From Lentibacillus amyloliquefaciens (GTDB lineage Bacteria; Bacillota; Bacilli; Bacillales; Amphibacillaceae): 64,000 nt of DNA. The DNA is taken from NCBI RefSeq assembly GCF_001307805.1, contig NZ_CP013862.1:1240001-1304000 (forward strand). Reading direction: 5' to 3'. This document shows positions 42,731 through 63,845 of this stretch, one piece after another (the first letter of the stretch is position 1; every line of letters begins with the position of its first letter). Both the position numbers and the translations under genes were made by a program. The notes beneath the pieces were generated by a model. The model searched no databases. It saw only the letters and a program-made list of their open reading frames with translations, and was not told where the DNA came from.

Positions 42731-42789
42731 GTTCAACATAATGGCCCAATTCGGACACAATGCTTCTTCAACAACTGCGCCCGTTAAGT
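42731..42789 (-). repeat. attC-like array repeat 1
   Basis: Left end GTTCAACATAATGGCCC, right end GCGCCCGTTAAGT. Both termini fit RYYYAAC and GTTRRRY exactly. The centre CAATGCTTCTTCAACAACT is shared with repeat 22 at 60322. Confidence 0.7.
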
Positions 42790-42808
42790 GAATAGTATAT
42801 TATTACCC

Positions 42809-42913
42809 TTAAAAAAACACACTTTTAAATACTTGATAAATGGCAATTCCAACGATAACACCTGATGTAGTGACTAACCACTTTGGCATTGTACGCTTTT
42901 TATATATGTTCAC
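42809..42913 (-). CDS. Small membrane protein, 34 aa (array cassette)
   Basis: GTG start 9 bases after GAGGGGA; product begins MNIYKKRTMPKWLVTTSG, then one hydrophobic helix. It fills the whole segment between array repeats 1 and 2. No family is known. The ribosome binding site, length and position support it as a real gene. Confidence 0.5.
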   Translation of the reverse strand: MNIYKKRTMPKWLVTTSGVIVGIAIYQVFKSVFF

Positions 42914-42973
42914 TTTGCACACTCCCCTCAAAGTGATAAACAATAGTTAATTACTTTTTATTTTAACACATAT

Positions 42974-43043
42974 TACTCAACAATCTGGCCCTACAATGGC
43001 AATTTGGGCGCCGTACTTTATTCCGCAACTGCGCCCGTTAATT
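42974..43043 (-). repeat. attC-like array repeat 2
   Basis: CTCAACAATCTGGCCC, inner TTGGGCGCC, TTTATTCCGCAAC and GCGCCCGTTAATT. The TAA stop of the next gene is formed inside the right end. Confidence 0.75.
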
Positions 43044-43289
43044 TAATACGAATCCCAGTATAGAAGCAAAAAATATAAACAAGGAAACAATAATACTCAT
43101 ATAACCCGAAAATGCTCTTTTATCTTCTTTAAGTTCAACTACTCCAGTAATCAAAAAAGTTATACCTACTACCAACGCCAAGTAAGGGATGAACTCAAAA
43201 TCTTTAGTTATTAGCATAAAGCCTGCTAACACTACACTAATTATTTGAAAAGTAACTCTTAGTATTTTAAAAATATTTTTCCCTCCCAC
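43038..43289 (-). CDS. Small membrane protein, 83 aa (array cassette)
   Basis: Three hydrophobic helices, starting MGGKNIFKILRVTFQIIS behind GGGAGG-like bases. The pattern resembles short DUF-type membrane proteins of Bacilli, but I cannot name a family. Its stop codon TAA is part of repeat 2. Confidence 0.65.
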   Translation of the reverse strand: MGGKNIFKILRVTFQIISVVLAGFMLITKDFEFIPYLALVVGITFLITGVVELKEDKRAFSGYMSIIVSLFIFFASILGFVLN

Positions 43290-43290
43290 G

Positions 43291-43345
43291 ACCTTGCCCT
43301 ATTCAGAAGGATGCACCTATTAGGCTAGCGCGCCCGTTAACTGAA
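43291..43345 (-). repeat. attC-like array repeat 3 (variant)
   Basis: Centre ATTCAGAAGGATGCACCTATTA and right end GCGCGCCCGTTAACTGAA. Same subtype as the copies at 49349 and 61970 (GCACTATTCGATTA). Confidence 0.65.
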
Positions 43346-43574
43346 CCAGTAAGAAATACACTTTAACTTTCTTTTTTTGAACAGCCCGTTTTATATCAAA
43401 TACTCCTATTGTTCCGCAAATAAGTACGCCCAGAATAAAAAGGATTGTAAAACCCCAACGGCTTCCCCAGTTTATAAACACATTGTATAAACAAAGCAAT
43501 GCAATAGTAAGAGAACCGTATTTTTCTCGCCACTTATCAATTTTTGAAAAATACTTTTCGCTCTTTTTACTCAA
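43320..43574 (-). CDS. Small membrane protein, 84 aa, reading into the array repeat
   Basis: Two or three hydrophobic helices after a charged N terminus (SKKSEKYFSKIDKWREKYG). There is no stop before repeat 3, so its last residues (LTGALA) are encoded by the repeat. This suggests that the natural 3' end was replaced when the repeat was joined. Unknown function. Confidence 0.6.
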   Translation of the reverse strand: MSKKSEKYFSKIDKWREKYGSLTIALLCLYNVFINWGSRWGFTILFILGVLICGTIGVFDIKRAVQKKKVKVYFLLVQLTGALA

Positions 43575-43601
43575 AACAACTCACTCCCTTACCTATTTCC
43601 T

Positions 43602-43675
43602 ATTCCATTAAATTGCCCTTATATACTGAACGGACACCAAGTCTTATTCTGGAATGGCGCCCGTTCGTATTGCTT
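43602..43675 (-). repeat. attC-like array repeat 4
   Basis: Left end TTCCATTAAATTGCCC, right part CTTATTCTGGAATGGCGCCCGTT. The inner GGGCGC arm is degenerate (CGGACACC). Confidence 0.65.
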
Positions 43676-44096
43676 AAATAAAATTCAAGTAATCCGTTAC
43701 CCCATAGGCAACCAATCCTAAAATAGATAAGACACAAGTTATAGCACTTAAGAGATATGTTTTACTTTCTTTTTGATAAATCCTTTTCATTATGGTACGA
43801 AAAGCGAACACAGCAGTCATACCCACAAAAATAAGTATTCCGAGATGTAAGAATTCATTTATTACTATAATCATCCCAATAAAACTGGTCCAATAGAGTA
43901 TTTTTTCACCATATTTATGTAGTTTATTTACGTATTTTGTACCTAAATCGGATTCCTCTATATTAAATTTCGCTATTAGCTTTCGATTGATAAATTGATC
44001 TAAAACCAGAATAGCAATTAGAATAATAATAAGGACTGCCATTTTAAATGCCTCCTCTTGTAGGCCATCAACTGGCTTCATTAGCGTAAACGTCAA
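43674..44096 (-). CDS. Membrane protein, 140 aa (array cassette)
   Basis: Four hydrophobic segments with a basic loop (FINRKLIAKFNIEESDLGTKYVNKLHKYGEK). The first codons may be extra: a better start may be at MAVLIIILI (codon 19) behind GGAGG. Family not recognised. The stop lies next to repeat 4. Confidence 0.6.
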   Translation of the reverse strand: MTFTLMKPVDGLQEEAFKMAVLIIILIAILVLDQFINRKLIAKFNIEESDLGTKYVNKLHKYGEKILYWTSFIGMIIVINEFLHLGILIFVGMTAVFAFRTIMKRIYQKESKTYLLSAITCVLSILGLVAYGVTDYLNFI

Positions 44097-44135
44097 TTAT
44101 TTGTTTCATAATCGACCCATTCCTGAAGATCAACA

Positions 44136-44399
44136 CTATCTTACTGAGTCAACAATTTTCTTCGCATTTATCAATGACAAACCATATTTCTCTCTCAATG
44201 ATTTAACAGTCTTTACTTCCGTTGAAGTTTTTAATATTTCTTTTGCCTCATTTTTTATATCTTCATATGTCCCAGTATTCTCTAGAAGCCTGGCGTTTTC
44301 TCTTTTTAAAATACTGTTTTCACGCATTAAACTAAAGCACCAACACACAAGTGCAATGATAATTAATAACGAGCTAATATCTGACCACGGCATTTTCAA
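44136..44399 (-). CDS. Single-pass membrane protein with coiled coil, 87 aa
   Basis: N-terminal helix (ISSLLIIIALVCWCFSLM) then a coiled-coil stretch (RENSILKRENARLLENTG) and a C-terminal domain SLREKYGLSLINAKKIVDSV, reminiscent of the ribosomal L7/L12-like helix of DUF2207-type proteins. Function unknown. It shares a segment with the preceding gene, with no clear repeat between them. Confidence 0.6.
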   Translation of the reverse strand: MKMPWSDISSLLIIIALVCWCFSLMRENSILKRENARLLENTGTYEDIKNEAKEILKTSTEVKTVKSLREKYGLSLINAKKIVDSVR

Positions 44400-44454
44400 G
44401 ATCCCCTTTAATCATTGGTTTTGGTCAATGACCTACTTAAATTTTAGCATATTC

Positions 44455-44525
44455 TTCTCCCCAAAATGGGTCAGTCTCAGAAGAAAAGGACGCAATTCTT
44501 ATTCCGGAATGGCGCCCGTTTGAAG
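44455..44525 (-). repeat. attC-like array repeat 5
   Basis: Right part TTCTTATTCCGGAATGGCGCCCGTTTGAAGAA is typical. The left end is poor (CCAAAATGGGTCAGTC). Confidence 0.65.
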
Positions 44526-44530
44526 AATAC

Positions 44531-44689
44531 TTACACACCATCTTTGTAATTTCTATAATGTTGTATTTCTTTTTTCAAAGTACCTTTTCTCGTTTCCACC
44601 CATTGAACTTTTCTAAAAGTAATCAAGGATAACACAATCATTAAAAGATAAGCACTATATGAGGGACTTTCGCTATGAATAATATCCAA
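44531..44689 (-). CDS. Small membrane protein, 52 aa (array cassette)
   Basis: TTG start 9 bases behind GGGAGT. The product has a short acidic N terminus (MDIIHSESPS), one hydrophobic helix (AYLLMIVLSLITF) and a basic tail (TRKGTLKKEIQHYRNYK). It is the only frame between repeats 5 and 6, and its stop is 6 bases from repeat 5. Unknown family. Confidence 0.55.
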   Translation of the reverse strand: MDIIHSESPSYSAYLLMIVLSLITFRKVQWVETRKGTLKKEIQHYRNYKDGV

Positions 44690-44717
44690 TCTAATCACTC
44701 CCTTTTAAAATTTCATC

Positions 44718-44775
44718 TTAAACAATCTGCCCCGATTACGGCACACATTTATTTGGTTAACGCGCCCTTATATGG
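44718..44775 (-). repeat. attC-like array repeat 6
   Basis: Left end TTAAACAATCTGCCCC, right end GGTTAACGCGCCC. The centre is short and lacks the ATTCCGGAAT palindrome. Confidence 0.6.
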
Positions 44776-44847
44776 AATAAGCACCTTTGTTGAATTTCTA
44801 TACCTTCCTTTGATAGTTCTCTAAAGTATTGTTTTCATTATTCTTAC

Positions 44848-45324
44848 CTAATTCGAATCAAATGCTTCCCGATAAAATTCCCTTAACTCAGCTCCATTAT
44901 CCGGCCATTCAGGCGGCTGTGCGTTAACCATCATACCCAATGCATCAAGACAGCGATGCCATCCTGCAGCTGTTGCTGACGCCCAAGACCAGTCATCAAA
45001 CGTATGCTCAAATGTCATTCGACATCCATCGGAGGTGTTTTGCAATTCGATTCGCAGCAAATCATCAACCTCACGAAAAGCAAAAACCACAGGTGGCTCG
45101 AATGCAGTAATCACTCCTTCATACTTCGTTCCTTCTCCATCATCAAAGTCAATTTTGCCACCTTCATTGAGATCCATCTCTCCCGTTGCAAACGGATACC
45201 ACTTGGTAAAGTAATCAGGATCCGTTATGTAGCGGAAAACTCTCTCAGGTTTATGTGCAAAAAAACGCTCAAATTGCAAAACACAACGACCATCTCTTTC
45301 ATATAACTTTCCATATTCATTCAT
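44848..45324 (-). CDS. SRPBCC (AHSA1-like) family protein
   Basis: 157 residues with the START-like fold: FERFFAHKPERVFRYITDPDYFTKWYPF, a central beta-sheet, and a C-terminal helix HRCLDALGMMVN. The ATG at 45324 follows GAGGAGG. Ligand unknown. Such proteins are common in mobile gene cassettes. Confidence 0.85.
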   Translation of the reverse strand: MNEYGKLYERDGRCVLQFERFFAHKPERVFRYITDPDYFTKWYPFATGEMDLNEGGKIDFDDGEGTKYEGVITAFEPPVVFAFREVDDLLRIELQNTSDGCRMTFEHTFDDWSWASATAAGWHRCLDALGMMVNAQPPEWPDNGAELREFYREAFDSN

Positions 45325-45348
45325 TTTTTTCCTCCTCACATTTTTCGA

Positions 45349-45405
45349 TATTAACATAAGTAAAAGCGTGCAATTTTATCCCAGAATAGCGCCGGATGAT
45401 TGAAT
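45349..45405 (-). repeat. attC-like array repeat 7
   Basis: Degenerate left end (GATATTAACATAAG) and right part TTATCCCAGAATAGCGCCGGATGATTGAAT. Confidence 0.55.
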
Positions 45406-45446
45406 ACTCATGTTAATAAATTATTCCCGTCAGATAATGATGGCTT

Positions 45447-45818
45447 TTACATCCATTTTGCATCATTTTCCACTACATCCTTAAATCGATGTCTGGCTAT
45501 TTCACGGATTAATTTAAATGGTAAAGGCTGGTTCAATTGTAACTGTATCGCACTTTTAGTTGTCGAGAAAGGTTTTAGTTCTTTGTTAAACGTATTAATT
45601 GTGGCAGGAGTAGGATAAAAATTTATATGATTCTTAAATGCTCCAACAGTGAACAAAACCCTACGATAAGTAAATGCGGGAACACCCCATTTTAGTCCCT
45701 TTTCTGCCTCTGGAACTACCTCAGAAAGACATGTTAGCAAAGCATTTAATGTTCGCTGGGTCTCCAATGGGAATTGAGATACATATTCATCAATATTTTG
45801 TGGTTTTTGTTTAGTCAT
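45447..45818 (-). CDS. DUF1801 (YdhG-like) protein
   Basis: 123 residues: IDEYVSQFPLETQRTLNAL, EKGLKWGVPAFTYRRVLFTVGAFKNHINFYP and a C-terminal region LIREIARHRFKDV. This matches the YdhG/Fra-like family (an iron-chaperone role was proposed for B. subtilis YdhG). Cassette between repeats 7 and 8. Confidence 0.85.
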   Translation of the reverse strand: MTKQKPQNIDEYVSQFPLETQRTLNALLTCLSEVVPEAEKGLKWGVPAFTYRRVLFTVGAFKNHINFYPTPATINTFNKELKPFSTTKSAIQLQLNQPLPFKLIREIARHRFKDVVENDAKWM

Positions 45819-45855
45819 ATTTTCAGCTCCATTTACTATTCTTCCTATCTGCAGT

Positions 45856-45926
45856 TTTCAACAAAATAGCCCTACAATGCCAATTTGGGCGCTATCCTTT
45901 ATTCCGGATTTGCGCCCCGATTATTT
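45856..45926 (-). repeat. attC-like array repeat 8
   Basis: TTCAACAAAATAGCCC, CAATTTGGGCGC, CTTTATTCCGGATTTGCGCCCCGATTATT: a full-length typical copy. Confidence 0.75.
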
Positions 45927-45944
45927 AACAGACCTCTTCTGATA

Positions 45945-46316
45945 TTAGCTATTCGTATTGGAAAAATCGTCAATCGCTTGAACAGCCAGTTCCAATGATT
46001 TAATTCTTCTTTCTAAAAGCGTTCTTTGAGGACTACCTGCCTTTGACTTTGCATAACTATTCTCAATTGATGGGAATAAACCAATAAGAATAGTGCGAGC
46101 TCCTGCTAGTTCTTCCTGTGTGTAATGATGACTTCTTTGATTCCAAACGCTTTCTAGCATGGCTAAACCGACAGAAACAGCTTTGAGTCGTTTCTTTACC
46201 AGGGTAGTATTTGCGCCTTTCTGTGTCATCTGAGACAAAGCACTTTCGAATTTACTAATTGTCGATTGTAAGGATTTTATGGATTCCATTTTATTTACAT
46301 CTGATACTTTTTCCAT
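45945..46316 (-). CDS. Conserved hypothetical helical protein, 123 aa
   Basis: Mostly alpha-helical, no membrane segment or signal. Features: SLQSTISKFESALSQM, VKKRLKAVSVGLAMLESVW, TLLERRIKSLELAVQAI. The ATG at 46316 follows AAAGGAC; upstream codons to 46346 are not needed. I recognise no domain. Cassette between repeats 8 and 9. Confidence 0.65.
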   Translation of the reverse strand: MEKVSDVNKMESIKSLQSTISKFESALSQMTQKGANTTLVKKRLKAVSVGLAMLESVWNQRSHHYTQEELAGARTILIGLFPSIENSYAKSKAGSPQRTLLERRIKSLELAVQAIDDFSNTNS

Positions 46317-46336
46317 GTTAGTACTGTCCTTTCTCG

Positions 46337-46380
46337 TATTCAACAACTGGCCTTATTCCGCAACCGCGCCCGTTTATTTA
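46337..46380 (-). repeat. attC-like array repeat 9 (short form)
   Basis: TTCAACAACTGGCC joined almost directly to TTATTCCGCAACCGCGCCCGTTTATTT. The first hairpin (GGCCC...GGGCGC) is deleted. Confidence 0.65.
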
Positions 46381-46659
46381 AGACGTTTTAGTAATTTTCC
46401 TCAATATAGGAAAGTTAGATACAATATCCCTTATTAATCTTGTTAATTTATGTCAAAATAAGTCGAACATTCCCAATAAAAATAAATGAATTTTTTGTTA
46501 AAATGATTATAGATGTTATACAGCGTTAGATATCCTTCAAAATTACCAATTACTTGGAGTTGGAGGGAGTCTATGGAGAGAAACTATAATTCTTCTTTTC
46601 TAGAAAGTAAATGAAAAGGTAGTATGGGACATTAAGAAACTATAAGGGGGTATTTTAAA

Positions 46660-47311
46660 ATGAAAAAGGTTCTGGTCAATTCAATAATGGTGGCAATGGT
46701 TTTTCTAATGATAGCGCCAAGTGTATCAGCGCAATCAAATAGCGTATCGAAAGACAATAGCTTTAAAAATGGTTTTTCCGAAAAACTAATTAAGGAAGTA
46801 GACGAATATGTTAAAGTGGCAGGTAATTCTTATGAGTTATCAAACCTAGCCGAACTAAAAACAAAGATTTCAAAAAATGAACTTGACAAAATGAGAAAAC
46901 AGATAGCTGAAACAAAATGATAACCTTGAAAAGACAAGCGATAATACCTTTAAGGTGGAAATGACAGACAAAGAAATAACTGAAAAAGCTGCTGAACTTG
47001 GTTTTGAATTTAACGAATCAGGCCAAAAAGATGGCGAAAACCATTTATTCAATGAAGGAATAAATAGGATTAACGTACACTGGTGGGGTTTTGAAATATG
47101 GTTAAGCGAAACATCTGTGTCACGAATACTTACTGGAGGTATTTCTGCAGCGTCTTCTATTTTGACTATTATGGTACCTGGTGTAGGAATCGGTGTCGCA
47201 GCAGGTGTTAACACCATTATTTGGAGTATATTCGCCGATCAAAGAGCTAGAGCAGTTTATTTCACATATAATGTGTTTACAGGATCAATAAACAATTTTC
47301 GATATCAGTAA
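46660..47311 (+). pseudogene. Secreted bacteriocin-like precursor, frameshifted as sequenced
   Basis: The first part (46660-46920) encodes a signal peptide (KKVLVNSIMVAMVFLMIAPSVSA). The second (46955-47311) continues in another frame with NDNLEKTSDNTFKVE read just before its first ATG, then HWWGFEIWLSETS and a glycine-rich hydrophobic region (GVGIGVAAGVNTIIW). Removing one A from the A4 run near 46916 fuses them to about 217 residues. The layout resembles secreted Bacillus peptides with a WWGF.IYLS motif and Gly-rich tail. The antimicrobial role is inference. A 13-codon frame at 46573 and a GGGGG ribosome binding site lie upstream. It runs opposite to most of the array. Confidence 0.65.
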
Positions 47312-47324
47312 AGGGTGAATTAAT

Positions 47325-47483
47325 ATTAAAAAAAAGAGAATTATACCTGCAATTGTATTCTTTGCAGTTGCGTTGACTTTAATTTTCATTTTTTTAAAAC
47401 CGGGTATAATACAGTCATTGTTACTTGGAGTTACTGTATTTTGCTCAGGTTTAATAGCGAATTATGAAAAGCCGGAAAAATAG
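47325..47483 (+). CDS. Small membrane protein with apparent ATT start (possible immunity peptide)
   Basis: 52 codons with KKKRIIPAIVFFAVALTLIF, a second helix and the tail NYEKPEK. The frame has no ATG, GTG or TTG before the first helix. AGGGTGA ends 6 bases before an ATT, which is the only plausible start. It begins 13 bases after the bacteriocin-like gene and ends before a strong terminator, as immunity genes do. Confidence 0.5.
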   Translation: MKKKRIIPAIVFFAVALTLIFIFLKPGIIQSLLLGVTVFCSGLIANYEKPEK

Positions 47484-47523
47484 ACTTTTTTGCAGGGATA
47501 ATTCAAGAAACCTTTGTAAATCG

Positions 47524-47568
47524 AAAATAACACAGCTCAGTTCACATTTAACTGAGCTGTGTTATTTT
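47524..47568. terminator. Strong terminator after the bacteriocin-like unit
   Basis: Perfect 19-base stem (AAAATAACACAGCTCAGTT and complement) with a 7-base loop, then T-rich sequence. Works in both directions. Confidence 0.85.
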
Positions 47569-47576
47569 CTATATTT

Positions 47577-47650
47577 TGTTCCGTTAACTGGCCCGAAAAT
47601 GGTAAACTGGGCGCTGTCCTTTATTCTGGATTTGTGCCCGTTTGATGAAC
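47577..47650 (-). repeat. attC-like array repeat 10
   Basis: TTCCGTTAACTGGCCC, AACTGGGCGCTGTCC, TTTATTCTGGATTTGTGCCCGTTTGATGAA: full-length copy. Confidence 0.75.
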
Positions 47651-47665
47651 AGTCTGATTACTATA

Positions 47666-47806
47666 TTAACTTATTGTTTCCGGCTCGATAAGGTCCGTAT
47701 CGTCCGGTATGTAACCTAATTGCCTACTCATTGAAACGATTTGCCCTTTGTGATGAAATTCATGAGTAGCCGCATGTGTATAGAGCCAAAGGGGTTGAAC
47801 TGTAAA
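47666..47806 (-). pseudogene. C-terminal fragment of a DinB family gene
   Basis: The frame ending at 47666 reads LYTHAATHEFHHKGQIVSMS and RQLGYIPDDTDL, the last helix of a DinB protein including the paired metal histidines. There is no start; upstream it runs into the neighbouring membrane-protein gene. Only the last 45 or so codons survive, next to repeat 10. Confidence 0.7.
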
Positions 47807-47807
47807 A

Positions 47808-47990
47808 CTAACTATTATTTTTCGCCCGATTGTTTTTCATTTTTTTATAGAATACGTAAATTGCATTGCTAGCGACCACTAATATAGCACCAGTCAAAAA
47901 ACCATATATAGGAGGTAGATAAGGTATATCAGGAAAAAACACGATTTGACTTCCAATGCTACCCCCGATGAATACCACTGGAGCCATCAT
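47808..47990 (-). CDS. Small two-helix membrane protein, paralogue of 36880-37080
   Basis: 60 residues: VVFIGGSIGSQIVFFPDIPYLPPIYGFLTG..., then a second helix and the basic tail YKKMKNNRAKNNS. The last codons read over CGATTGTTT-type sequence resembling a repeat right end, so the tail may be truncated. No good ribosome binding site precedes the ATG. Codons for NSEWRLS lie in frame upstream, behind an in-frame TAA. Confidence 0.5.
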   Translation of the reverse strand: MMAPVVFIGGSIGSQIVFFPDIPYLPPIYGFLTGAILVVASNAIYVFYKKMKNNRAKNNS

Positions 47991-48060
47991 ACTTAATCTC
48001 CATTCAGAGTTTTTGAGTTTCTCCTTTTTTTAATTTTTCATACCTCCTTCCTCAGCCACT

Positions 48061-48133
48061 TATTAAACAGAATGGCCCGACAGTAGCAAATTGAATGCTG
48101 CCTTTAATCCAGAAGCGCGCTCCGTTTGTGGAA
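48061..48133 (-). repeat. attC-like array repeat 11
   Basis: TTAAACAGAATGGCCC, GCAAATTGAATGCTGCC, AATCCAGAAGCGCGCTCCGTTTGTGGAA: full length with several substitutions. Confidence 0.65.
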
Positions 48134-48195
48134 CGAGTACCAAAACTGTTTTCAGATAATCTTATTTAACGTACAAATATCAATTCAAATTGTTC

Positions 48196-48402
48196 CTAGT
48201 CATCTCTATGTTCCAGAATATCACCAGGTTGACAGTCTAAAGCCTTACAAATCGATTCTAACGTTGATAATCGAATCGCTTTTGCTTTTCCATTTTTCAA
48301 AATAGAAAGGTTAGCCATAGTGATTCCCACTCTCTCCGAAAGCTCGGTTACACTCATTTTTCTTTTAGCTAACATCACATCAATATTGATTATAATTGCC
48401 AT
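48196..48402 (-). CDS. XRE-family helix-turn-helix regulator (YozG-like)
   Basis: 68 residues, the single HTH of Cro/CI type (MSVTELSERVGITMANLSILKNGKAKAIRLSTLESICKAL) with the typical end CQPGDILEH. It is 10 bases downstream of a DUF2975 gene, the same pairing as yozG/yoaS-type pairs in Bacillus. Confidence 0.9.
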   Translation of the reverse strand: MAIIINIDVMLAKRKMSVTELSERVGITMANLSILKNGKAKAIRLSTLESICKALDCQPGDILEHRDD

Positions 48403-48411
48403 CTCCTCACC

Positions 48412-48885
48412 TCAGACCGTCAGATCATTTTCTTCTTTTATTGCCAATGCACTTCTTATTAGTTCCTGAAGAATAGCAGCAAAAACTGAAATCACAATAG
48501 ATCCAAAAATAACCGAAAAACCTAAAAGAAAAACTCCTGGTTGTACAGCGTCTTGTGAGAAAAGGAACAACAGCCCCAATACATCACAAACCATAATTGC
48601 AATTCCATAATACTTGATATGCCTTAAAGCGGCTACAGTACGTTCCGTGAAGGGAATTTTCTTCTCAATATAGCTCAACAGTTTGGCGGACTGATACAGT
48701 GCCAGAAAAAAGGGGATCATTGTCAGATATACACCCAAAAGAACTGGCACTTTTAAATAAGCATACTTAGGGTAGGTTTTTGCCATTTCCTCTGCCATCC
48801 AAGGCACTAAAAATATACACAAAACCAGAACAATGATGCCAATGAAAAAGACCGCCGCCTTTAAAAATGTTGTTTTCCACTTCAT
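48412..48885 (-). CDS. DUF2975 membrane protein
   Basis: 157 residues with four transmembrane helices and DUF2975 features (LSYIEKKIPFTERTVAALRHIKYYGI). ATG at 48885 behind GGTGG. The membrane partner of the XRE regulator; the role of the pair is unknown. Confidence 0.87.
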   Translation of the reverse strand: MKWKTTFLKAAVFFIGIIVLVLCIFLVPWMAEEMAKTYPKYAYLKVPVLLGVYLTMIPFFLALYQSAKLLSYIEKKIPFTERTVAALRHIKYYGIAIMVCDVLGLLFLFSQDAVQPGVFLLGFSVIFGSIVISVFAAILQELIRSALAIKEENDLTV

Positions 48886-49003
48886 AATACAACCCACCTT
48901 TTCCGATTATCTAAATTTTATCAGATTTTTTATCGTAACTCAATAAATAAATATTGTTTTAAACTATACTTCTTAATCTTTCTTTCAAAAACATCAAAAA
49001 AAT

Positions 49004-49039
49004 CCTTCCCGTTTTGTGTATATGTACAAAGCAGGAAGG
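49004..49039 (-). terminator. Minus-strand terminator between cassettes
   Basis: CCTTCC...GTTTTGT / ACAAAGC...GGAAGG stem, followed on the minus strand by a run of seven Ts. It ends transcripts coming from the 49.1 kb gene after they pass repeat 12. Confidence 0.75.
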
Positions 49040-49068
49040 CATTTCTATTTATAAAACAGTTTACTTGT

Positions 49069-49140
49069 TATTCAATTATCTGGCCCTACAATGGCAATTT
49101 GGATGCTGCCATTTATTCTGTAAGCGCGCCCGATTGATTA
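49069..49140 (-). repeat. attC-like array repeat 12
   Basis: TTCAATTATCTGGCCC, CAATTTGGATGCTGCC, TTTATTCTGTAAGCGCGCCCGATTGATTA: full length. The next gene stops inside its right edge. Confidence 0.7.
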
Positions 49141-49326
49141 GTAATGTGGTTCATTTTTTCTCAAATTACTCTCCGCAATAAAAAATACAATAAGAGCTAC
49201 TCCCATAAAAAATGAATTTAATGTGTTAGAAATTAATCCGTACAGAGATAGTGTTATTATGCTTAGGAGTATAACAGTAAAAATAATTCTTAGTCTCAAA
49301 AATTTCCCTTTAAAATACTTTGACAT
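49138..49326 (-). CDS. Small membrane protein, 62 aa (array cassette)
   Basis: Two hydrophobic helices after a basic N terminus (MSKYFKGKFLRLR), ending ESNLRKNEPHY. Preceded by GGGGAG. The stop TAA is formed by the repeat edge. No family recognised. Confidence 0.65.
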   Translation of the reverse strand: MSKYFKGKFLRLRIIFTVILLSIITLSLYGLISNTLNSFFMGVALIVFFIAESNLRKNEPHY

Positions 49327-49348
49327 ACATACTCCCCTTTGTATCCTT

Positions 49349-49725: not shown

Positions 49726-49759
49726 ATTTCATATCACCTTCATTTTTTCTTTCTAACTT

Positions 49760-49833: not shown

Positions 49834-49860
49834 AGGATCGAATCTTATCTTTTTATCGAG

Positions 49861-57521: not shown

Positions 57522-57557
57522 TTAGCGAAAAGTGTTCATTTTCACTTGACGGTTACA

Positions 57558-57931
57558 ACTCAACTTGGGATATTGTTTTTCAAAGGATTTTACTATCTTC
57601 GTGGTATTACAAAAAGCGTACTTTTTCACCCCACCATAAGGGATCCATATTACCCTATCCTGAATCTGCATATAGAGTCCCTTTATAGAAATAGCCTAAC
57701 CTCTCCAAGAGACTGACACAGTGCTTGTCATCATTAAATTCGTTAATTTCTACAGCAATATCGATAATTAGTTTCGCACTTAACCCCCTCAGCAGCCGTG
57801 CTGCCAATATGATGAACATCTACAATATACTTACCAATTTTCTCTTGTTTCTCCTTGTCTAATAAAAATTCCTTTAGCCAATCCTCTGGCCAAAGTACTA
57901 AAAAAACCTCACCTTTTGGTAATCCAAGCAT
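57558..57931 (-). pseudogene. GrpB (UPF0157) family pseudogene cut by IS21
   Basis: From ATG 57931: MLGLPKGEVFLVLWPEDWLKEF, IGKYIVDVHHIGSTA. A frameshift at 57785 or so continues as IIDIAVEINEFNDDKH, then GYFYKGTLYADSG, another shift, CNTTKIVKSFEKQYPK. It ends at the IS21 border. GrpB-like nucleotidyltransferase-fold genes are frequent accessory genes. Confidence 0.75.
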
Positions 57932-57997
57932 TAAATTACCCCCCACAGACGTATATTGTATGTATTTTACTCTTAAATTTTGGTTTGTCAATTGTAC

Positions 57998-58065
57998 TGT
58001 TAAAAAGCCCCTTATATGCGTTAATGGAGCGATTCTTTACTATGGAAACGCGCCCGTGGAATTTA
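57998..58065 (-). repeat. attC-like array repeat 21
   Basis: CTGTTAAAAAGCCCC, TAATGGAGCGATT, TTTACTATGGAAACGCGCCCGTGGAAT: diverged but in the usual order and orientation. Confidence 0.55.
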
Positions 58066-58158
58066 AGAAGAAATTTGATCGGTAGAGTTGGTTAAATTGG
58101 CCGTATATTTTTCTCCGCTCATTGTCATGTCTCAATTGAAAATAATACCCTTCATTAT

Positions 58159-58179
58159 GATATAACCTATGGTTATATC
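58159..58179. promoter_or_regulatory. Palindromic operator upstream of the MFS gene
   Basis: GATATAACC-TAT-GGTTATATC, a perfect 21-base palindrome about 90 bases before the MFS start. A LysR regulator encoded beside the transporter is the natural candidate to bind it (inference). Confidence 0.6.
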
Positions 58180-58268
58180 CATATCACCTTTCAATATTTC
58201 TGGGGATCAGATGACATCGATTACACTTTTGTGTAGTAGATATTTCATCTGTAAGGAGATGAACGACG

Positions 58269-59317
58269 ATGAAACCGATCAAATTAATGATTCCCGGATT
58301 TTTAATCGTTGCAGCCACCTATGGTTTTGCAAGATACACTTATGGTCCCTTTCTGGATATGATCCAAAATGATTTTAATCTAGGGCATCAGATGACAGGC
58401 TTGATTGGCGGTCTGCCTTTCTTGGCTTATGTAATTGGGACCTTACTGGCGATCCGGTACATCAAACGCCTGGGATTGAAAAAACCGATCATTATTGGAG
58501 GAATTCTGGCATCTATTGGCCTTTTTCTGGTCATGACTTCTTTTTCCTTATGGCTTTTGATCGCGGGTATTATCGTTGGCGGTGCAAGCGGTGGCTTTGT
58601 TTGGACCACTATGCGCTAGTGGTCACCCGGTTAATTGATTCATCCAAACAAACTCAGGTCATCGGCTTTGTCAATGCCGGGCCTGCATTGGCCATTTTTT
58701 TAACAGGTCCGTTGGCATTTGCATTCGGTTCTGAATGGCGTCTGATATGGGGCGTTTTTAGTATTTTGGCCTTCATAACCTTGATATGGATTTATAAGGT
58801 GCTGCCTTCCGAGCAGTTAACCGTCGACCGGAGGACCCTTCAAGGCTATGTGAAGAAAAAAACGCTTCTTACACAAGGGAAATCTTTTTTTTCGGCTAGT
58901 GTTATCTGCGGGCTCGGAACCGGCGTCTATGTCACTTATGCGGTAAATCTGATTAATAATATGTCGCTTTCCATCCCCTTCTTAAGCCAATATCCACAGT
59001 TCTTCATGTCTTTTATTGGAATGATTAGTTTGTCATCCGTTATGGCTTTTACGGTATTAAAAAAGGTGTCCTTTCATGCCTTTTACATGGTGACAACATC
59101 GGCATTATCCTTTTCAGTCATGTTATTGCTTATTGCATTTGGCCAGTTTTTAGGTCCTGTTTTTACGGGCTATCTTCTTTCATTTGTGTCTTTATCCACT
59201 CTTTTTGTGGCATCGGGTCTATTGCTCGCGACTTTACTTGTACTAAGACCTGCTGCCGAGAGAACACAGCAAAAATCGGCTAAGCTGAAAAAGTATATAC
59301 CAACACATCAAGGATAG
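58269..59317 (+). pseudogene. MFS transporter, frameshifted as sequenced
   Basis: Major-facilitator permease of about 350 residues, 10 to 12 helices. The first frame (58269-58619) has MKPIKLMIPGFLIVAATYGF and RYIKRLGLKKPIIIGG (loop 2-3 motif) and stops after GGFVWTT. The rest, from YALVVTRLIDSSKQTQVIGF, is in the next frame to 59317. Adding one base near 58608 joins them. AAGGAG ribosome binding site. Substrate unknown. Confidence 0.82.
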
Positions 59318-60116
59318 AACGGTTCACACTAAATAAGTACAAATCTCTTGTGAGGGCATAATCAGCAATAGGCAGAAATCGAACGCCTCGAAGTTCGATA
59401 TGCGTTGCCATCATGCCCGGTACAAAAGCAATCCCCACACCAGCAGCTGTGAAGCCCATAACGTTGTGCCAAGAGGTTTCGATGACCTCTTTCGGTGCCA
59501 CTTTTCTCTTCTCAATTAAAGTCATCACTCGTTGATATAAAGGCGTGCTTGAGGGTGTGAGAATGAGTGTTTCGGCTAAACATTCGTCAATTGAGACTTT
59601 CGATTGGTTGGCTAGCCAATGATCAACGGGAACAGCGGCCTCGAATTGATCCTTAAATAAAAACTGTGAGAACAAACCCTTGTAGGAGGGGATGTCTTGA
59701 ATGATCGCGGCATCCAATTTGGTTTCGAACAACCGGGGAATTAAATCTTTATCGTTATCCAAAACGTCTGATATGGTTACATTCGCACTTTGTAGCCCCA
59801 GGTATTTGCGGGGCAAATAATATGAACTTTCGAGCGGTGTACAACCTAAATGGATCGTTTGATGATTCATATGTTTTTCAATGGTACGATGAACGTCCCA
59901 AAAAAGAGGCTCAAGCTCCTGAAATAATGCCCCGCCTCTTTCCGTTAATTCAATGCCTTTTGGGGAACGCTTCAAGACGGAAAATCCTAAAACGCCCTCT
60001 AACTTTTTGATTTGCTTGCTTAAGGCCGGCTGGGAGACGAATAATTTCGTTGCCGCTTTTGAAAGGCTTTGTTCTTTTGCGACTTGAATAAAGTAATGTA
60101 GCATTTGCAAGTTCAT
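59280..60116 (-). CDS. LysR family transcriptional regulator
   Basis: 278 residues: N-terminal winged helix-turn-helix (LHYFIQVAKEQSLSKAATKLFVSQPALSKQIKKLE) and a periplasmic-binding-like effector domain. Its 3' end overlaps the MFS gene by 38 bases in convergent orientation, unlike the usual divergent layout. It probably controls that transporter. Confidence 0.92.
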   Translation of the reverse strand: MNLQMLHYFIQVAKEQSLSKAATKLFVSQPALSKQIKKLEGVLGFSVLKRSPKGIELTERGGALFQELEPLFWDVHRTIEKHMNHQTIHLGCTPLESSYYLPRKYLGLQSANVTISDVLDNDKDLIPRLFETKLDAAIIQDIPSYKGLFSQFLFKDQFEAAVPVDHWLANQSKVSIDECLAETLILTPSSTPLYQRVMTLIEKRKVAPKEVIETSWHNVMGFTAAGVGIAFVPGMMATHIELRGVRFLPIADYALTRDLYLFSVNRSILDVLVYTFSA

Positions 60117-60321
60117 TCTCGGTTTAACTCCTTATCTTGTTATCCATCCAGTACCCACTTAGCATTATTATACCATTGCACGCAAATATTCTTGATTTTT
60201 CGGACATTTATTTAAAAATTCAACTCTTATTTTTACTGGCAATTTACTTACAAATCATTATTACTCCTTTTTTACCATCTCCCAGAGAAGGTGATCAAAT
60301 CATAGCAGATAGCTCTTCTTT

Positions 60322-60385
60322 ATTCCCGATAATGGCCCGATTCAGGTGCAATGCTTCTTCAACAACTGCGCCCGATGATTGAAGA
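60322..60385 (-). repeat. attC-like array repeat 22
   Basis: Left GATAATGGCCCG, centre CAATGCTTCTTCAACAACT as in repeat 1, right GCGCCCGATGATTGAA. The gap 60117-60450 holds this repeat and nothing else that I recognise. Confidence 0.7.
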
Positions 60386-60450
60386 ACAATAAAAACATAA
60401 AAACGACATCTGTTTTGCCTAGTGATTAGTTAATGTTTTAGTAACAACCT

Positions 60451-60987
60451 TTATGCCAATAGGTAGCGAATCAATCCCAATATGGCAAAACAAAATAGGG
60501 ACATGCCAGATCCTATGCCGGTGATTGCACTGTTAGCAACGCCCATTTTTTGGGATAGCCATGGTGATATTATCGCTATTACTATCATAAGTACCGCTAA
60601 TATATACAAACTGGGATCTTTAAAGACGTTTACTAACCAGAAAAAATGAGCACCTACGATAAAAGCAATCCACGGAGCAACATAGTCCCTTTTTTTCTTT
60701 TGGATCAACAAGAAAGCTCCGAGACCTCCTATAATCAATTCAGCATAGAAGACAATTATGTAAGTAATTAACGAGTCCATTTCTGACAAAGTAGTAGCCG
60801 CATCCCAGTGCGTCACGCTTAAATACACGCCAATCAAGCATACTAACAACGCAGTTCCGGAAGCAACCCCAATATACATACGCCAATTTTTTCTAGGATT
60901 CTCCTGAGCCCAGCCGAACCAAACAAAACTAAACATACCAAAAATCGCCGTGTACATCGCGTAGTCCCTTATATATTCCGGTTCCAG
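60451..60987 (-). CDS. Membrane protein, about 178 aa, with apparent CTG start
   Basis: Five to six transmembrane helices: YTAIFGMFSFVWFGWAQENP, FYAELIIGGLGAFLLIQKKK, WIAFIVGAHFFW. The first ATG (60957) is about 35 bases from the only ribosome binding site (GAAGGAGGG). In-frame CTG at 60987, 7 bases after it, gives LEPEYIRDYA before that ATG; an ATT one codon earlier is also possible. Function unknown. Confidence 0.65.
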   Translation of the reverse strand: MEPEYIRDYAMYTAIFGMFSFVWFGWAQENPRKNWRMYIGVASGTALLVCLIGVYLSVTHWDAATTLSEMDSLITYIIVFYAELIIGGLGAFLLIQKKKRDYVAPWIAFIVGAHFFWLVNVFKDPSLYILAVLMIVIAIISPWLSQKMGVANSAITGIGSGMSLFCFAILGLIRYLLA

Positions 60988-61014
60988 AATCAGCCCTCCT
61001 TCATTTTAAATTTT

Positions 61015-61090
61015 TAATAAACAAACTGACCCTTATGTATATTACCGGGCGCCAGTTGTTATTCCATATAGGCGCCCGTTAGCTTAATAA
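61015..61090 (-). repeat. attC-like array repeat 23
   Basis: TAAACAAACTGACCC, TTATGTATATTACCGGGCGCC, GTTATTCCATATAGGCGCCCGTTAGC. Close to repeat 14; the right end reads GTTAGC. Confidence 0.75.
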
Positions 61091-61092
61091 AT

Positions 61093-61188
61093 TTATTTTT
61101 TATTTTTATAGTTAACAAAAACTATAAATGAAAATAGTATAAAGAAAACAATACCAACACCAAGTAATATGTCAATAATCCATTCCAT
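61093..61188 (-). CDS. Small membrane peptide, 31 aa (array cassette)
   Basis: ATG behind GAGGGGA: MEWIIDILLGVGIVFFILFS, then a basic end NYKNKK. The only frame between repeats 23 and 24. A single-pass peptide of unknown role, with a good ribosome binding site and its stop beside repeat 23. Confidence 0.55.
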   Translation of the reverse strand: MEWIIDILLGVGIVFFILFSFIVFVNYKNKK

Positions 61189-61227
61189 AAAAATCCCCTC
61201 TCCGAAACAAACTGAAAACCTATTATG

Positions 61228-61295
61228 TAGAAATTGGCCCTGTGTGTATGGAACGGGTGCCAAGCCATATTCCAGAATGGCGGCCGATTACAGAA
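61228..61295 (-). repeat. attC-like array repeat 24
   Basis: TAGAAATTGGCCC, GGAACGGGTGCC, CATATTCCAGAATGGCGGCCGATTA: full length, with a substitution in GCGCCCG. Confidence 0.65.
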
Positions 61296-61305
61296 ATCTT
61301 CATTC

Positions 61306-61491
61306 TTATTCGGCGTTATTATTTTCATCCTCTTCCGGCAATTTTTCTAAGATCACTAATGCAAGTGTTGCTATCGGTCCAAGGAAAAAAGAAATAAAAA
61401 ACCAATGAAGACCCGATCTGTTTTTCCCCTGTGCCAACCCAGCATTAATAAGGGTAAGAGTTCCCCAGCCAACAAAAAATTGATCTTCCAC
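61306..61491 (-). CDS. Small membrane protein, 61 aa (array cassette)
   Basis: GTG at 61491 follows GGGGGAA: MEDQFFVGWGTLTLINAGLA, QGKNRSGLHWFFISFFLGPI and an acidic tail EEDENNNAE. The frame open to 61545 contains the ribosome binding site. The pattern is of short two-helix proteins in Bacilli; function unknown. Confidence 0.65.
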   Translation of the reverse strand: MEDQFFVGWGTLTLINAGLAQGKNRSGLHWFFISFFLGPIATLALVILEKLPEEDENNNAE

Positions 61492-61555
61492 GCTGCTTTC
61501 CCCCTTAGTAATTGATTGCAGCATAATTTCTGTAATTTGTAACAAGAATTGTTAT

Positions 61556-61624
61556 CCAGTTAACTAGCCAAAGTATGGTACGGGCGCCAAGCTTCATTCC
61601 GGAATAGCGCCCGATGATTGAATA
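61556..61624 (-). repeat. attC-like array repeat 25
   Basis: CCAGTTAACTAGCC, TACGGGCGCC, TTCATTCCGGAATAGCGCCCGATGATTGAAT: typical full-length copy. Confidence 0.75.
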
Positions 61625-61665
61625 GGCTGTTACTGATGTTAGCTGGTATTATTAAAGAATAGATT

Positions 61666-61899
61666 TTAAAATAATGTGAATATCATTACAGAAAAAATAA
61701 TGGTGCCTGTAATTATGTAAAGATAGCCAAGTTTATTATCATCCGCCTTTACTTTCTCAATTCCAAATAAAAGTAACATTGTAGTCAAAAATGTATTAAT
61801 AACATTAAATGGTAGTTCAATATCAATAAAAAATAAAGAAACACAAAATCCAATTGCGAAGACTGCTATAATGGTGTTGAGTTTGCTCAGTATGCTCAC
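61666..61899 (-). CDS. Small membrane protein, 77 aa (array cassette)
   Basis: Three hydrophobic segments with a charged loop GIEKVKADDNKLGY. Family not recognised. Between repeats 25 and 26. Confidence 0.6.
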   Translation of the reverse strand: MSILSKLNTIIAVFAIGFCVSLFFIDIELPFNVINTFLTTMLLLFGIEKVKADDNKLGYLYIITGTIIFSVMIFTLF

Positions 61900-61969
61900 G
61901 CTATTACCACCTGTTAAAATTTCTCTTATTAAACATACTACTACAATCGCACCAGAGATGAATACACTT

Positions 61970-62026
61970 ATCCCACATTTTAAAAAGGACGCACTATTCG
62001 ATTACTGCGCCCGTTTCTTGAATAGT
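61970..62026 (-). repeat. attC-like array repeat 26 (variant)
   Basis: AAAAAGGACGCACTATTCGATTACTGCGCCCGTTTCTTGAAT; the left end is degenerate. Same subtype as repeats 3 and 13. Confidence 0.6.
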
Positions 62027-62051
62027 CTATTTCCGCTATTAGCTGGTCTTT

Positions 62052-62465
62052 CTAATCAAATAACCCCTTAATCTTATTAATGTCTTTTTCGCTTAATTGA
62101 TTATTCAGAGTGCTATTAAGCAACGATAACATTTCTTCTGCTAATTGTTCCCCCTCTTCTGAAAGTAATACATCAACGGAGCGCTTATCTCCCTGATCGG
62201 TTGTACGTTGAACTAATGACTCTCCCCGATATTTTTCCATCCTTGATACTAATCGAGACAATGCGCTATGACTAAGACCGACCTTTGGAAGCAGATCTGA
62301 TAAACGCATTTTTTTTTCGTCCGTTTGTGCGAGAAAGTGTAACAAATAAAATTCATTAATGCCTAATTGAAATTGATGGTGTAACGCATAGTCCATGGCT
62401 TTCAATAGGCGATCATGATATTTCGTAAGATTAATCCAGGTTGCAAACAACTCATTATCGTTCAT
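62052..62465 (-). CDS. MarR family transcriptional regulator
   Basis: 137 residues, winged helix-turn-helix (MRLSDLLPKVGLSHSALSRLVSRMEK) with wing DQGDKRSVDVLLSEEG. ATG at 62465 behind GGAAAGG. Divergent from the Old Yellow Enzyme gene; two direct repeats in the shared promoter region are probably its operators. This suggests an electrophile- or oxidant-sensing repressor (inference). Confidence 0.9.
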   Translation of the reverse strand: MNDNELFATWINLTKYHDRLLKAMDYALHHQFQLGINEFYLLHFLAQTDEKKMRLSDLLPKVGLSHSALSRLVSRMEKYRGESLVQRTTDQGDKRSVDVLLSEEGEQLAEEMLSLLNSTLNNQLSEKDINKIKGLFD

Positions 62466-62519
62466 GTTTATAACCCTTTCCGATTCAATGTATTGACACA
62501 ATTATAGCATACCGTTTAA

Positions 62520-62610
62520 TATATGTATGTGCAAGCAAATAAATAAATTGGTGTTCAAGAGTTTACACTGTCTTTAATTCCATTTTATATGCATGCGCAA
62601 ACAAATAGTT
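62520..62610. promoter_or_regulatory. Divergent promoter region with two putative MarR operators
   Basis: A 25-base element TATATGTATGTGCAAGCAAA (start shown) at 62520-62544 recurs at 62586-62610 with 20 of 25 bases equal (TATATGCATGCGCAAACAAA). The first overlaps the region upstream of an extended -10 (TGCTATAAT, minus strand) for marR; the second lies just before the ribosome binding site of the divergent gene. Confidence 0.65.
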
Positions 62611-62622
62611 AGGAGGTATTAG

Positions 62623-63669
62623 ATGAATAATTTATTCACCCCCTATTCCATCAAAAATTTAGAGTTAAAAAACCGCATCGTCATGTCACCGATGTGCCAG
62701 TATTCAGTTGACAAAGAAGATGGCGCTCCAAACGATTGGCATTTCGTACATTATGTTTCTAGATCTGTCGGTGGAACAGGGTTAATTATCATGGAAATGA
62801 CCAGTGTAACACCCGAGGGCCGAATTACTAATGGTGACCTAGGCCTTTGGTCCGATCATCAAATTCCAGAATATCAACGAATCATCAATGAGATTCACAA
62901 ACACGGCACTAAGGTCGGTATTCAAATTGCACATGCGGGACGCAAAGCTGAAGATGCCACCCAGCCTGTTGGTGCTTCCGACATTCCCGTTGAGGTTCTG
63001 CCGGAAGAAACAATGAATGGTGAACTTAAGCCTCCAAGAGCTTTAACAACACAAGAAGTTCAAAAAATCGTTCAACAGTTTAAAGAAGCTACTGAACGAG
63101 CCGTTAAAGCAGGGTTTGACACGGTTGAGTTACATGGTGCTCACGGTTATCTATTGCATCAATTTATGTCACCAAGCATCAACAACCGCGCCGATGATTA
63201 TGGAAAAGACTTAGCGCTTTTTGGAGAAGAAGTCGTTAGAGCAGTTAAAAGTGTTATGCCTCCAACAATGCCTCTCATTATGCGTATGTCTGCCATTGAA
63301 TACGTGGACGGTGGCTACAATTTATCGCATTCGATAAAAATGGCTAAACGTTTTAAAGAAGCAGGCGTTGATCTTTTCCATATATCCAGTGGTGGCGAAG
63401 GTCCTCCAGGAAAAAGCAAGCCGAAAAATACCCCGGGATATCAAGTTCCTTTTGCACGTGAATTTAAAGAACAACTAGGTCTTCCGGTTATTGCTGTTGG
63501 GAAATTAAGCCATCCTGCCCTTGCAGAAGCAACGATCAGCAATGGAGATGCTGAACTTGTAGCTATTGCACGAGGGATGCTCAATGATCCTTACTGGGGA
63601 TTACACGCAGAAAAAGCATTGACTCATAAAGTAAATCCTCCTTTTCAATACTCAAGGGGAATACGTTGA
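62623..63669 (+). CDS. namA: Old Yellow Enzyme family NADPH dehydrogenase (NamA/YqjM-like)
   Basis: 348-residue FMN-dependent ene-reductase, TIM barrel. It begins LFTPYSIKNLELKNRIVMSP with the YqjM-type cysteine C25 in MSPMCQYS. HGAHGYLLHQF supplies the His pair for substrate, followed by the region GADLF..SSGG. It reduces activated double bonds of electrophiles. TTAGGAGG precedes the ATG by 6 bases. The short N terminus makes it a diverged NamA relative, so the symbol is tentative. Confidence 0.88.
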   Translation: MNNLFTPYSIKNLELKNRIVMSPMCQYSVDKEDGAPNDWHFVHYVSRSVGGTGLIIMEMTSVTPEGRITNGDLGLWSDHQIPEYQRIINEIHKHGTKVGIQIAHAGRKAEDATQPVGASDIPVEVLPEETMNGELKPPRALTTQEVQKIVQQFKEATERAVKAGFDTVELHGAHGYLLHQFMSPSINNRADDYGKDLALFGEEVVRAVKSVMPPTMPLIMRMSAIEYVDGGYNLSHSIKMAKRFKEAGVDLFHISSGGEGPPGKSKPKNTPGYQVPFAREFKEQLGLPVIAVGKLSHPALAEATISNGDAELVAIARGMLNDPYWGLHAEKALTHKVNPPFQYSRGIR

Positions 63670-63671
63670 AA

Positions 63672-63698
63672 AAAGGTTTCCTTAATGGAAGCCTTTTT
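63672..63698 (+). terminator. Terminator of the Old Yellow Enzyme gene
   Basis: AAGGTTTCC / GGAAGCCTT hairpin with a 5-base loop and T6, just after the stop. Confidence 0.85.
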
Positions 63699-63775
63699 TA
63701 TTAAATTAATTTACATAGCTCTCATTAAACCTTCTTTGGTTTTTTCCTCTATATAAACATTTAGTTTGATTTGCT

Positions 63776-63845
63776 CTTCAATAGCATGGCTTCTTTAAAG
63801 CAAATGCAGGCGAAAATCTTATTCAATTCTTGCGCCCGATCGTAT
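63776..63845 (-). repeat. attC-like array repeat 27
   Basis: Left TCAATAGCATGGC, right part TCTTATTCAATTCTTGCGCCCGATCG. Last copy in the window; the array may continue beyond. Confidence 0.6.

Follow-up and report, generated by a model that had tools for sequence, protein, structure and literature searches.

The cassette array and its sites

The stretch of DNA analysed here (the window, 64,000 nucleotides) covers positions 1240001–1304000 of the genome of Lentibacillus amyloliquefaciens (our label G000), a single contig of 3.86 Mb, and contains from 42.7 kb onwards an array of small genes separated by short repeats. A preliminary description of the sequence had read the region between 42.7 and 63.9 kb as an integron-like array of gene cassettes with about 27 attC-like copies of the repeat. 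The array itself, in a member of the Bacillaceae s.l., is confirmed: the patterns of the left and right arms of the repeat occur 28 and 16 times in the window, against 3.4 and 2.6 expected. With a core weight matrix derived from 159 copies, 23 strong sites (at least 15 bits) are detected; every one is on the minus strand, and none lies before position 42,782. Mononucleotide shuffles of the whole window yield 0.2 matches at 14 bits and 0.05 at 16 bits. The common orientation of the copies stands, while their number resolves into 23 strong sites and a decayed remainder, for example at 58.05 kb (13.4 bits) and at 48.12 kb (recognised by eye only). The statement that nothing convincing occurs in 1–40 kb holds for sites of at least 15 bits, of which the matrix finds none in 1–42.7 kb, but has to be amended for five weak matches that precede the array, one of 12.4 bits at 18.6 kb and four of 13.3–14.9 bits at 37.3–40.1 kb. 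The latter, on the minus strand at 37285, 37959, 38463 and 40123, may be what is left of sites at a former end of the array. At higher coordinates, the array extends beyond the window and comprises 36 sites between genome positions 1,282,782 and 1,316,091. An Rfam scan of 42–64 kb returned no matches. The array and its strong core sites, scored with the weight matrix, are as follows.

42764..63850, minus strand, part of the cassette array within the window, 23 strong sites, continuing to genome position 1,316,091
42764..42795, minus strand, core site, 31.8 bits
43018..43049, minus strand, core site, 38.0 bits
43317..43348, minus strand, core site, 24.1 bits
43644..43675, minus strand, core site, 33.2 bits
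44499..44530, minus strand, core site, 45.3 bits
44749..44780, minus strand, core site, 23.5 bits
45376..45407, minus strand, core site, 30.6 bits, centre CGGCGC
45899..45930, minus strand, core site, 20.3 bits
46353..46384, minus strand, core site, 40.8 bits
47621..47652, minus strand, core site, 33.5 bits
49113..49144, minus strand, core site, 31.7 bits
49382..49413, minus strand, core site, 30.8 bits
50120..50151, minus strand, core site, 36.7 bits
50983..51014, minus strand, core site, 35.0 bits
51496..51527, minus strand, core site, 15.7 bits
51957..51988, minus strand, core site, 31.8 bits
53027..53058, minus strand, core site, 42.2 bits
60355..60386, minus strand, core site, 33.8 bits
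61059..61090, minus strand, core site, 35.2 bits
61267..61298, minus strand, core site, 31.5 bits
61594..61625, minus strand, core site, 36.4 bits
61994..62025, minus strand, core site, 32.1 bits
63819..63850, minus strand, core site, 34.4 bits

On the gene strand, with the first G of GGGCGC as position 0, the core is a dyad of about 32 bp, TTATTCAACAA-WC-GGGCGC-NN-TTCCGGAATAA, occupying columns −13 to +18. Across 298 non-redundant sites the mean profile correlation of the dyad is 0.71 at centre 2.5, the middle of GGGCGC, the next best value being 0.20. Judged by its sequence, the site has the form of a tyrosine-recombinase core (Xer/lox-like, dif-like) with a conserved centre. A second half-site, GGGCCA-NN-TTGTTGAATAA, follows the core in 203 of 351 elements (58%), against 24 of 351 in a control stretch, and its preferred spacings, +43–45 in 97/203 and +34–36 in 35/203, lie about one helical turn apart. 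Several observations show that this half-site can sometimes serve as a junction. A good left arm accompanies 23 of 102 GGGCCA half-sites, 16 of them having no GGGCGC-type centre upstream; a 1,133-bp segment starting at GGGCCA follows two unrelated upstream flanks (loci L105 and L115); and a half-site of this kind forms one end of a duplication in the window:

49388..49783, minus strand, first copy of a duplication of about 396 bp (97.7% identity), with ends at a core site and at a GGGCCA half-site
51965..52358, minus strand, second copy of the same repeat, partner of 49388..49783

No conserved −10 box appears in the profile behind the second half-site, and we therefore do not claim a promoter role for its arm.

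Distribution of the arrays

In the examined regions of the Lentibacillus genome, to which all our site counts for it refer, 181 sites form 19 clusters and singletons. The orientation of 179 agrees with that of their own cluster; one of the two opposed sites (L105) is a plus-strand GGGCCA site whose strand was misread by the matrix. These arrays carry more than a hundred small exchangeable cassettes, which a dedicated Xer-type enzyme apparently shuffles. The GGGCGC repeat is present in all 12 Lentibacillus genomes (our own and the 11 relatives searched). In the family, the strict GGGCGC pattern occurs in 52 of 159 genomes, a reversed control giving no matches, and a related GGGTGC pattern (type B) in 72 of 159.

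Evidence for the mobility of cassettes

Cutting the arrays of this genome and of eight relatives at neighbouring sites gave 319 segments of 150–3000 bp (median 610 bp), among them 147 of our own genome (median 560 bp). As had been described for the window, a segment typically carries one short gene with the element following its stop: the longest open reading frame (ORF) lies on the site strand in 265 of the 309 segments that have an ORF of at least 40 amino acids, and in these segments the median distance from stop codon to next site is 31 nt. Thirty pairs of segments match over their full length (at least 90% of length, 75–100% identity), 14 within a genome and 16 between species, five of the latter 16 coming from a single block shared by L118 and L097. 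An 825-bp cassette is 99.76% identical between our genome and G005, although purB is only 77% identical, and its flanks differ on both sides. A block shared with G007 agrees at 8,908 of 8,916 bases (purB 87%) and has a site at each end. Another pair from our genome and G005, identical at 392/392 positions, is part of a 709-bp shared stretch with a common upstream flank and is not used as an example of mobility. Two cassettes in the window have counterparts elsewhere:

49132..49400, minus strand, cassette encoding a 62-aa hydrophobic protein, 98% identical over its full length to a cassette in L108 of the same genome, with different neighbours on both sides
51002..51514, minus strand, cassette encoding a 108-aa protein without Pfam match, 99.6% identical over 513 bp to congener G006 (purB 86%), with different neighbours on both sides

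Since these segments had been cut at sites beforehand, raw local matches (at least 200 bp and 93% identity; copies of insertion sequences (IS) and non-array repeats retained) were examined as a less biased check. Of 89 match ends, 40 fall no more than 12 bp from the centre of a site in at least one locus of the pair, and 32 do so in both loci, compared with 1.4% for a random position. Leaving out the 10 of 50 matches that touch a locus end, 29 of the 40 interior matches have one end at a site and 11 have both. The shuffling of units at the repeats, which had been suggested as a test, is thus seen in the comparison of arrays and of species, as shared cassettes, differing neighbours and breaks at the centre of the site. 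Both within the genome and from species to species, the comparison shows that what lies between two neighbouring sites behaves as a mobile unit.

Breaks in homology map to the conserved centre

To place the break in homology, pairs of elements sharing only one neighbouring cassette were aligned. The counts refer to near-identical subsets (20 of 55 and 48 of 94 pairs) from which gapped pairs were dropped, and components of up to six elements repeat some of the evidence. Where only the downstream cassette is common (n = 20), agreement is 19–20/20 at each of positions 0 to 5 and falls to 13/20 at −1 and 10/20 at −2, where unrelated sites agree in 55% and 47%. Where the upstream cassette is common (n = 48), agreement is 47/48 at −5, 46/48 at −4, 44/48 at −3, 29/48 at −2 and 47/48 at −1, and drops to 11/48 at +6; unrelated sites agree in 27% at +6 and 55% at −1. 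A deviant base at position 0 follows the upstream cassette in 1/6. Homology, as shown by comparison of these pairs, breaks at the conserved 6-bp centre GGGCGC; positions 0–5 are nearly constant, so that the break can be placed only within the hexamer as a whole. In integrons, the attC boxes read RYYYAAC and GTTRRRY, and exchange takes place at G^TT of the outer box. The suggestion that a GTTGAAY end of the repeat represents this crossover box is not upheld, the break mapping to GGGCGC and not to G^TT.

A recombinase associated with the arrays

The array had been described as lacking a visible integrase. This is correct for the window but not for the genome, in which a dedicated tyrosine recombinase, not of the IntI type, is encoded beside another array 0.9 Mb away, at genome positions 2202769–2203617 on the minus strand. 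Archaeal XerA and bacterial XerC and XerD function in chromosome-dimer resolution at dif, and the array-linked enzyme is XerA-like. In or beside arrays, its gene is found in 8 of 12 Lentibacillus genomes and is intact in 4. Our genome has 11 tyrosine-recombinase matches, 10 of them, including the array-linked one, over the family cut-off; only the array-linked gene lies within 6 kb of an examined site (1.1 kb, a weak 17-bit site). K165, H232, R235, H258 and Y267 are the same in all 21 recombinase sequences compared, and R141 is in nearly all; we take these to be the catalytic residues. The protein thus has the R, K, H..R, H, Y set of Xer-type enzymes, and its structure model shows a Xer fold (predicted local distance difference test score, pLDDT, 71.7).

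At E up to 1e-60, 31 of the 159 genomes of the family have an orthologue. The orthologues fall into two types, A with a best match at least 84% identical to our own recombinase and B with 52–72%. Near recombinases of the latter kind, sites read aactaac|GGGTGC.. or TGGTGC... GGGCGC sites outnumber GGGTGC sites in all 13 type-A genomes; among the 18 type-B genomes GGGTGC is the more frequent in 14, the less frequent in one (G030) and tied in three (G034, G088 and G167). Some of the recombinase matches behind these counts are partial (G165, G178 and G032), and G174 has a second copy of 58% identity. Congener G010, with the second recombinase type, has 13 GGGTGC and 3 GGGCGC sites. On these counts, recombinase type predicts site type across the family. 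On a plasmid of Sporosarcina psychrophila, a 65% orthologue has type-B sites around it, together with a GNAT gene and small genes of unknown kind.

None of the chromosomal neighbours of our recombinase gene recurs at high identity beside orthologues in six relatives; the weak matches there are to purB (29%) and to a beta-lactamase-like cassette gene (29–40%). At the limit used, a phage collection gave only distant relatives of the recombinase, in four records with 35–37% identity. A box, CGATTGTTGAATAA, precedes the start of the recombinase in most type-A orthologues read and in L144; it is not found in L140 and has one change in L142. Between a TTGTTGAATAA box and the start codon, most type-A orthologues have a conserved palindrome, GAATCAAATTAATTGATTC (e.g., L115 9618-9720), which looks like an operator. 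An orphan cassette gene, whose protein starts MKNHIKVNG, stands directly before the recombinase in four species (L085 12968-12345, L115, L090 and L129, by nucleotide match or reading), and its product is possibly a partner or regulator of the enzyme.

A model for cassette exchange and its alternatives

We propose that the array belongs to an integron-like cassette platform with its own Xer-lineage recombinase and its own sites, which is spread through Bacillales and is not an integron (probability about 0.85). The preliminary description had offered a convergent, repeat-mediated cassette system as its second option, and this is the option we favour, given non-attC sites, a non-IntI recombinase and mobile cassettes. 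On the gene strand, a cassette would begin with the right half-site and end with the left one, reading GGGCGC-NN-TTCCGGAATAA...gene...TTATTCAACAA-WC. The XerA-like recombinase, encoded in or beside the arrays, would bind both arms and exchange strands at GGGCGC, acting either on double-stranded DNA as in Xer/lox or on a folded single strand as in attC; cassettes would be excised as circles, and the circles inserted at sites having the same centre, a mode of insertion that would generate head-to-tail arrays of a single orientation. We infer the action of the dedicated recombinase from its linkage to arrays and its matched specificity. In a broader formulation, which we consider probable, this is a second, independently evolved platform for gene capture: the part that IntI and attC play in Proteobacteria would be taken in Bacillales by a Xer-lineage recombinase acting on a bipartite dyad site. 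Such a platform would have two or more specificity types (GGGCGC and GGGTGC among them) and would also travel on plasmids. No description of such a cassette system was recognised in the open PMC literature by title and start of abstract, subscription papers lying outside that search.

A number of points weigh against this model. The evidence for mobility is comparative, neither a recombination event nor a cassette circle having been observed. Within the centre, deviant bases at positions 3–5 follow the upstream cassette in 0 of 18 cells (from few elements), and those at position 3 follow the downstream cassette in 0 of 2; whether −2 is A or T depends on neither of the adjacent cassettes, though −1 goes with the upstream one. 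The recombinase gene is broken in G004, G006, G009 and G010, and an intact orthologue was not found in G005, G007, G008 and G011, though all 12 genomes have GGGCGC sites; nor does the gene have a fixed place or orientation relative to the arrays. Across the family, recombinase and GGGCGC sites are loosely linked (18 genomes with both, 13 with the recombinase only, 34 with the site only and 94 with neither; p = 0.0013), and many of the genomes with the GGGTGC pattern have no detected recombinase. The p-values for the association of recombinase type with site type (7e-7; outside the genus, 6/6 versus 13/17, 2e-4) are optimistic, because the types were drawn after the type-B sites had been seen and several genomes are mutual congeners. 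Finally, the box that precedes the recombinase start differs from the sites in its centre, which leaves the system with no known attI of matching centre.

Could the array instead be a true relative of integrons, that is, attC sites in a cluster lacking an integron integrase (CALIN), whose IntI was lost or has diverged and whose recombination proceeds on folded single strands? The outer arms are inverted repeats, and a GCGCCC arm at +23..25 (at least 5 of 6 bases in 66 of 228 sites, versus 1.2 in shuffles) is complementary to GGGCGC and may pair with it, allowing an attC-like hairpin. Folding, proposed earlier as a check, gives a divided answer: folds of the elements are more stable than those of shuffled sequences (mean −7.2 versus −4.9), and changes that keep a G–T pair on the gene strand are the commoner ones in sites with a clear 3′ arm (90/388 versus 22/194) and in a looser set (242/792 versus 84/396; shuffled, 41% versus 37%), but the two strands differ in folding energy hardly more than in shuffles (by 0.61 versus 0.47) and the arms do not covary, those of one site pairing no better than those of different sites (5.37 versus 5.42 of 8). 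The reading of the repeats as attC sites is not supported on other counts: of 386 sites, 5 have RYYYAAC where an attC site would have it and 2 have both boxes, and exchange is at GGGCGC. In addition, the search for an integrase found no protein reaching the TIGR02249 cut-off (265 bits) in any of the 12 Lentibacillus genomes, the array recombinase scoring 98.5. The latter aligns to positions 87–180 and 237–302 of that model, and about 17 residues face the 56 positions in between. IntI integrases carry an insertion in the catalytic domain (excerpt of PMC8138268), and this IntI-specific insertion appears to be absent from the array recombinase. A relationship to integrons is therefore unlikely in our view.

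That the host's XerC/XerD acts on the sites, as on the dif modules of Acinetobacter, with the array-linked recombinase a bystander, would agree with the dif-like architecture and with the other tyrosine recombinases over the family cut-off in this genome. The only place at which the dif pattern matches, 876212, which we take to be the host dif candidate, reads ACTTCCTAT..TTATGTAAACT, however, and its arms are unlike TTATTCAACAA. Site type moreover follows the type of the dedicated recombinase, and the near-uniform orientation of the array sites differs from the alternating C/D and D/C sites of Acinetobacter (excerpt of PMC12907356); we consider this explanation quite improbable. Hardly credible is an ordinary interspersed repeat family, of the repetitive extragenic palindromic (REP) or bcr type, situated at gene ends, with homologous recombination producing the shared segments. 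Short repeats near gene ends in 181 copies would suit it. Against it stand the single orientation within clusters, with the two exceptions described above, breaks that fall in the 6-bp centre of sites otherwise unlike each other, and whole single cassettes common to different species. The preliminary description had set such a family, scattered in both orientations without linkage to gene ends, against its own claim. A family of this kind would also have no unit between copies; what we find is agreement in orientation at 179 of 181 sites, and mobile units. Insertion of IS or of miniature inverted-repeat transposable elements was likewise considered and rejected, as it is hybrid sites, all pointing the same way, that define the units. 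Nor do we accept that homologous recombination alone produced the pattern.

Cassette cargo and neighbouring features

Among ten scanned proteins of the window's cargo, three have no Pfam family, and several further cassette proteins are, by eye, small and hydrophobic. Cassette genes with recognisable products are listed here.

44848..45357, minus strand, AHSA1/SRPBCC protein (PF08327; Pfam)
45447..45818, minus strand, DUF1801 protein (Pfam)
48196..48897, minus strand, two-gene cassette with a DUF2975 protein and an HTH_26 regulator (Pfam, ORF list)
50165..50944, minus strand, GNAT acetyltransferase (PF00583; Pfam)
52391..52936, minus strand, GNAT acetyltransferase (PF13302; Pfam)
62052..62501, minus strand, MarR-family regulator, in a unit that also has a divergent 348-aa ORF at 62623-63669

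Cassette ends with a hairpin-like stretch, GGTCAACCAGTTCAATGACCGGCTGACC, close unlike cassettes in five species (L118 2638, L089 16773, L090 3849, L093 5574, L094 3671/11133/13065, L095 614 and L098 550), and an end of this type also precedes the window site at 63837. No strong site lies between 53.0 and 60.4 kb, and in this gap three ORFs at 55034-57521 (225, 348 and 256 aa) resemble, by eye, an IstA/IstB-like pair of the IS21 type whose first gene is split over two frames. At lower coordinates than the array, nearly 4 kb at 32748-36665 recur at 98% identity, in two pieces, at L120 4551-10374, about 1.7 Mb away, one end of that copy lying 141 bp from a cassette site.

Relation to known systems and significance

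What does the system share with integrons? In both, small cassettes stand head to tail in arrays of a single orientation, some cassettes are common to several species and the outer arms of the sites are inverted, and the frequent breakage of the recombinase gene seen here has a parallel, since integron integrase genes can be broken too. Unlike in integrons, the recombinase is XerA-like and lacks the IntI insertion; the sequence, centre and exchange point of the site differ; the cassette gene lies, in our reading, on the strand equivalent to the attC bottom strand; and many separate arrays occur per chromosome, with no attI shown. The Xer/dif modules of Acinetobacter (pdif) are similar in that a Xer-family recombinase moves genes between its short dyad sites, but there, according to an excerpt of PMC12907356, C/D and D/C sites alternate and XerCD acts, whereas here one orientation, other arms, another centre and a dedicated recombinase are found. 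XerA, XerC and XerD resolve chromosome dimers at a dif site (excerpt of PMC8138268); the array-linked enzyme goes with many cassette sites. Repeats are also known from Bacillales in the form of bcr1–bcr18 of Bacillus cereus, thought to move by a mechanism like site-specific recombination; the excerpt of PMC6542083 that describes them mentions neither a cassette array nor such a recombinase.

Integrons are extremely rare in Firmicutes, where IntegronFinder 2.0 reported one complete integron (Limnochorda pilosa) and a few CALIN (excerpt of PMC9024848). Tools that rely on models of IntI and attC would overlook a cassette system whose recombinase and sites are different. If confirmed, the platform described here would imply more than one origin for arrays of exchangeable cassettes, and would mean that Bacillales species have in common a large pool of little-known small genes. 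It would also offer a direct test of whether an integron requires the fold, the extra helix and attI, or whether a core site and its recombinase are enough.

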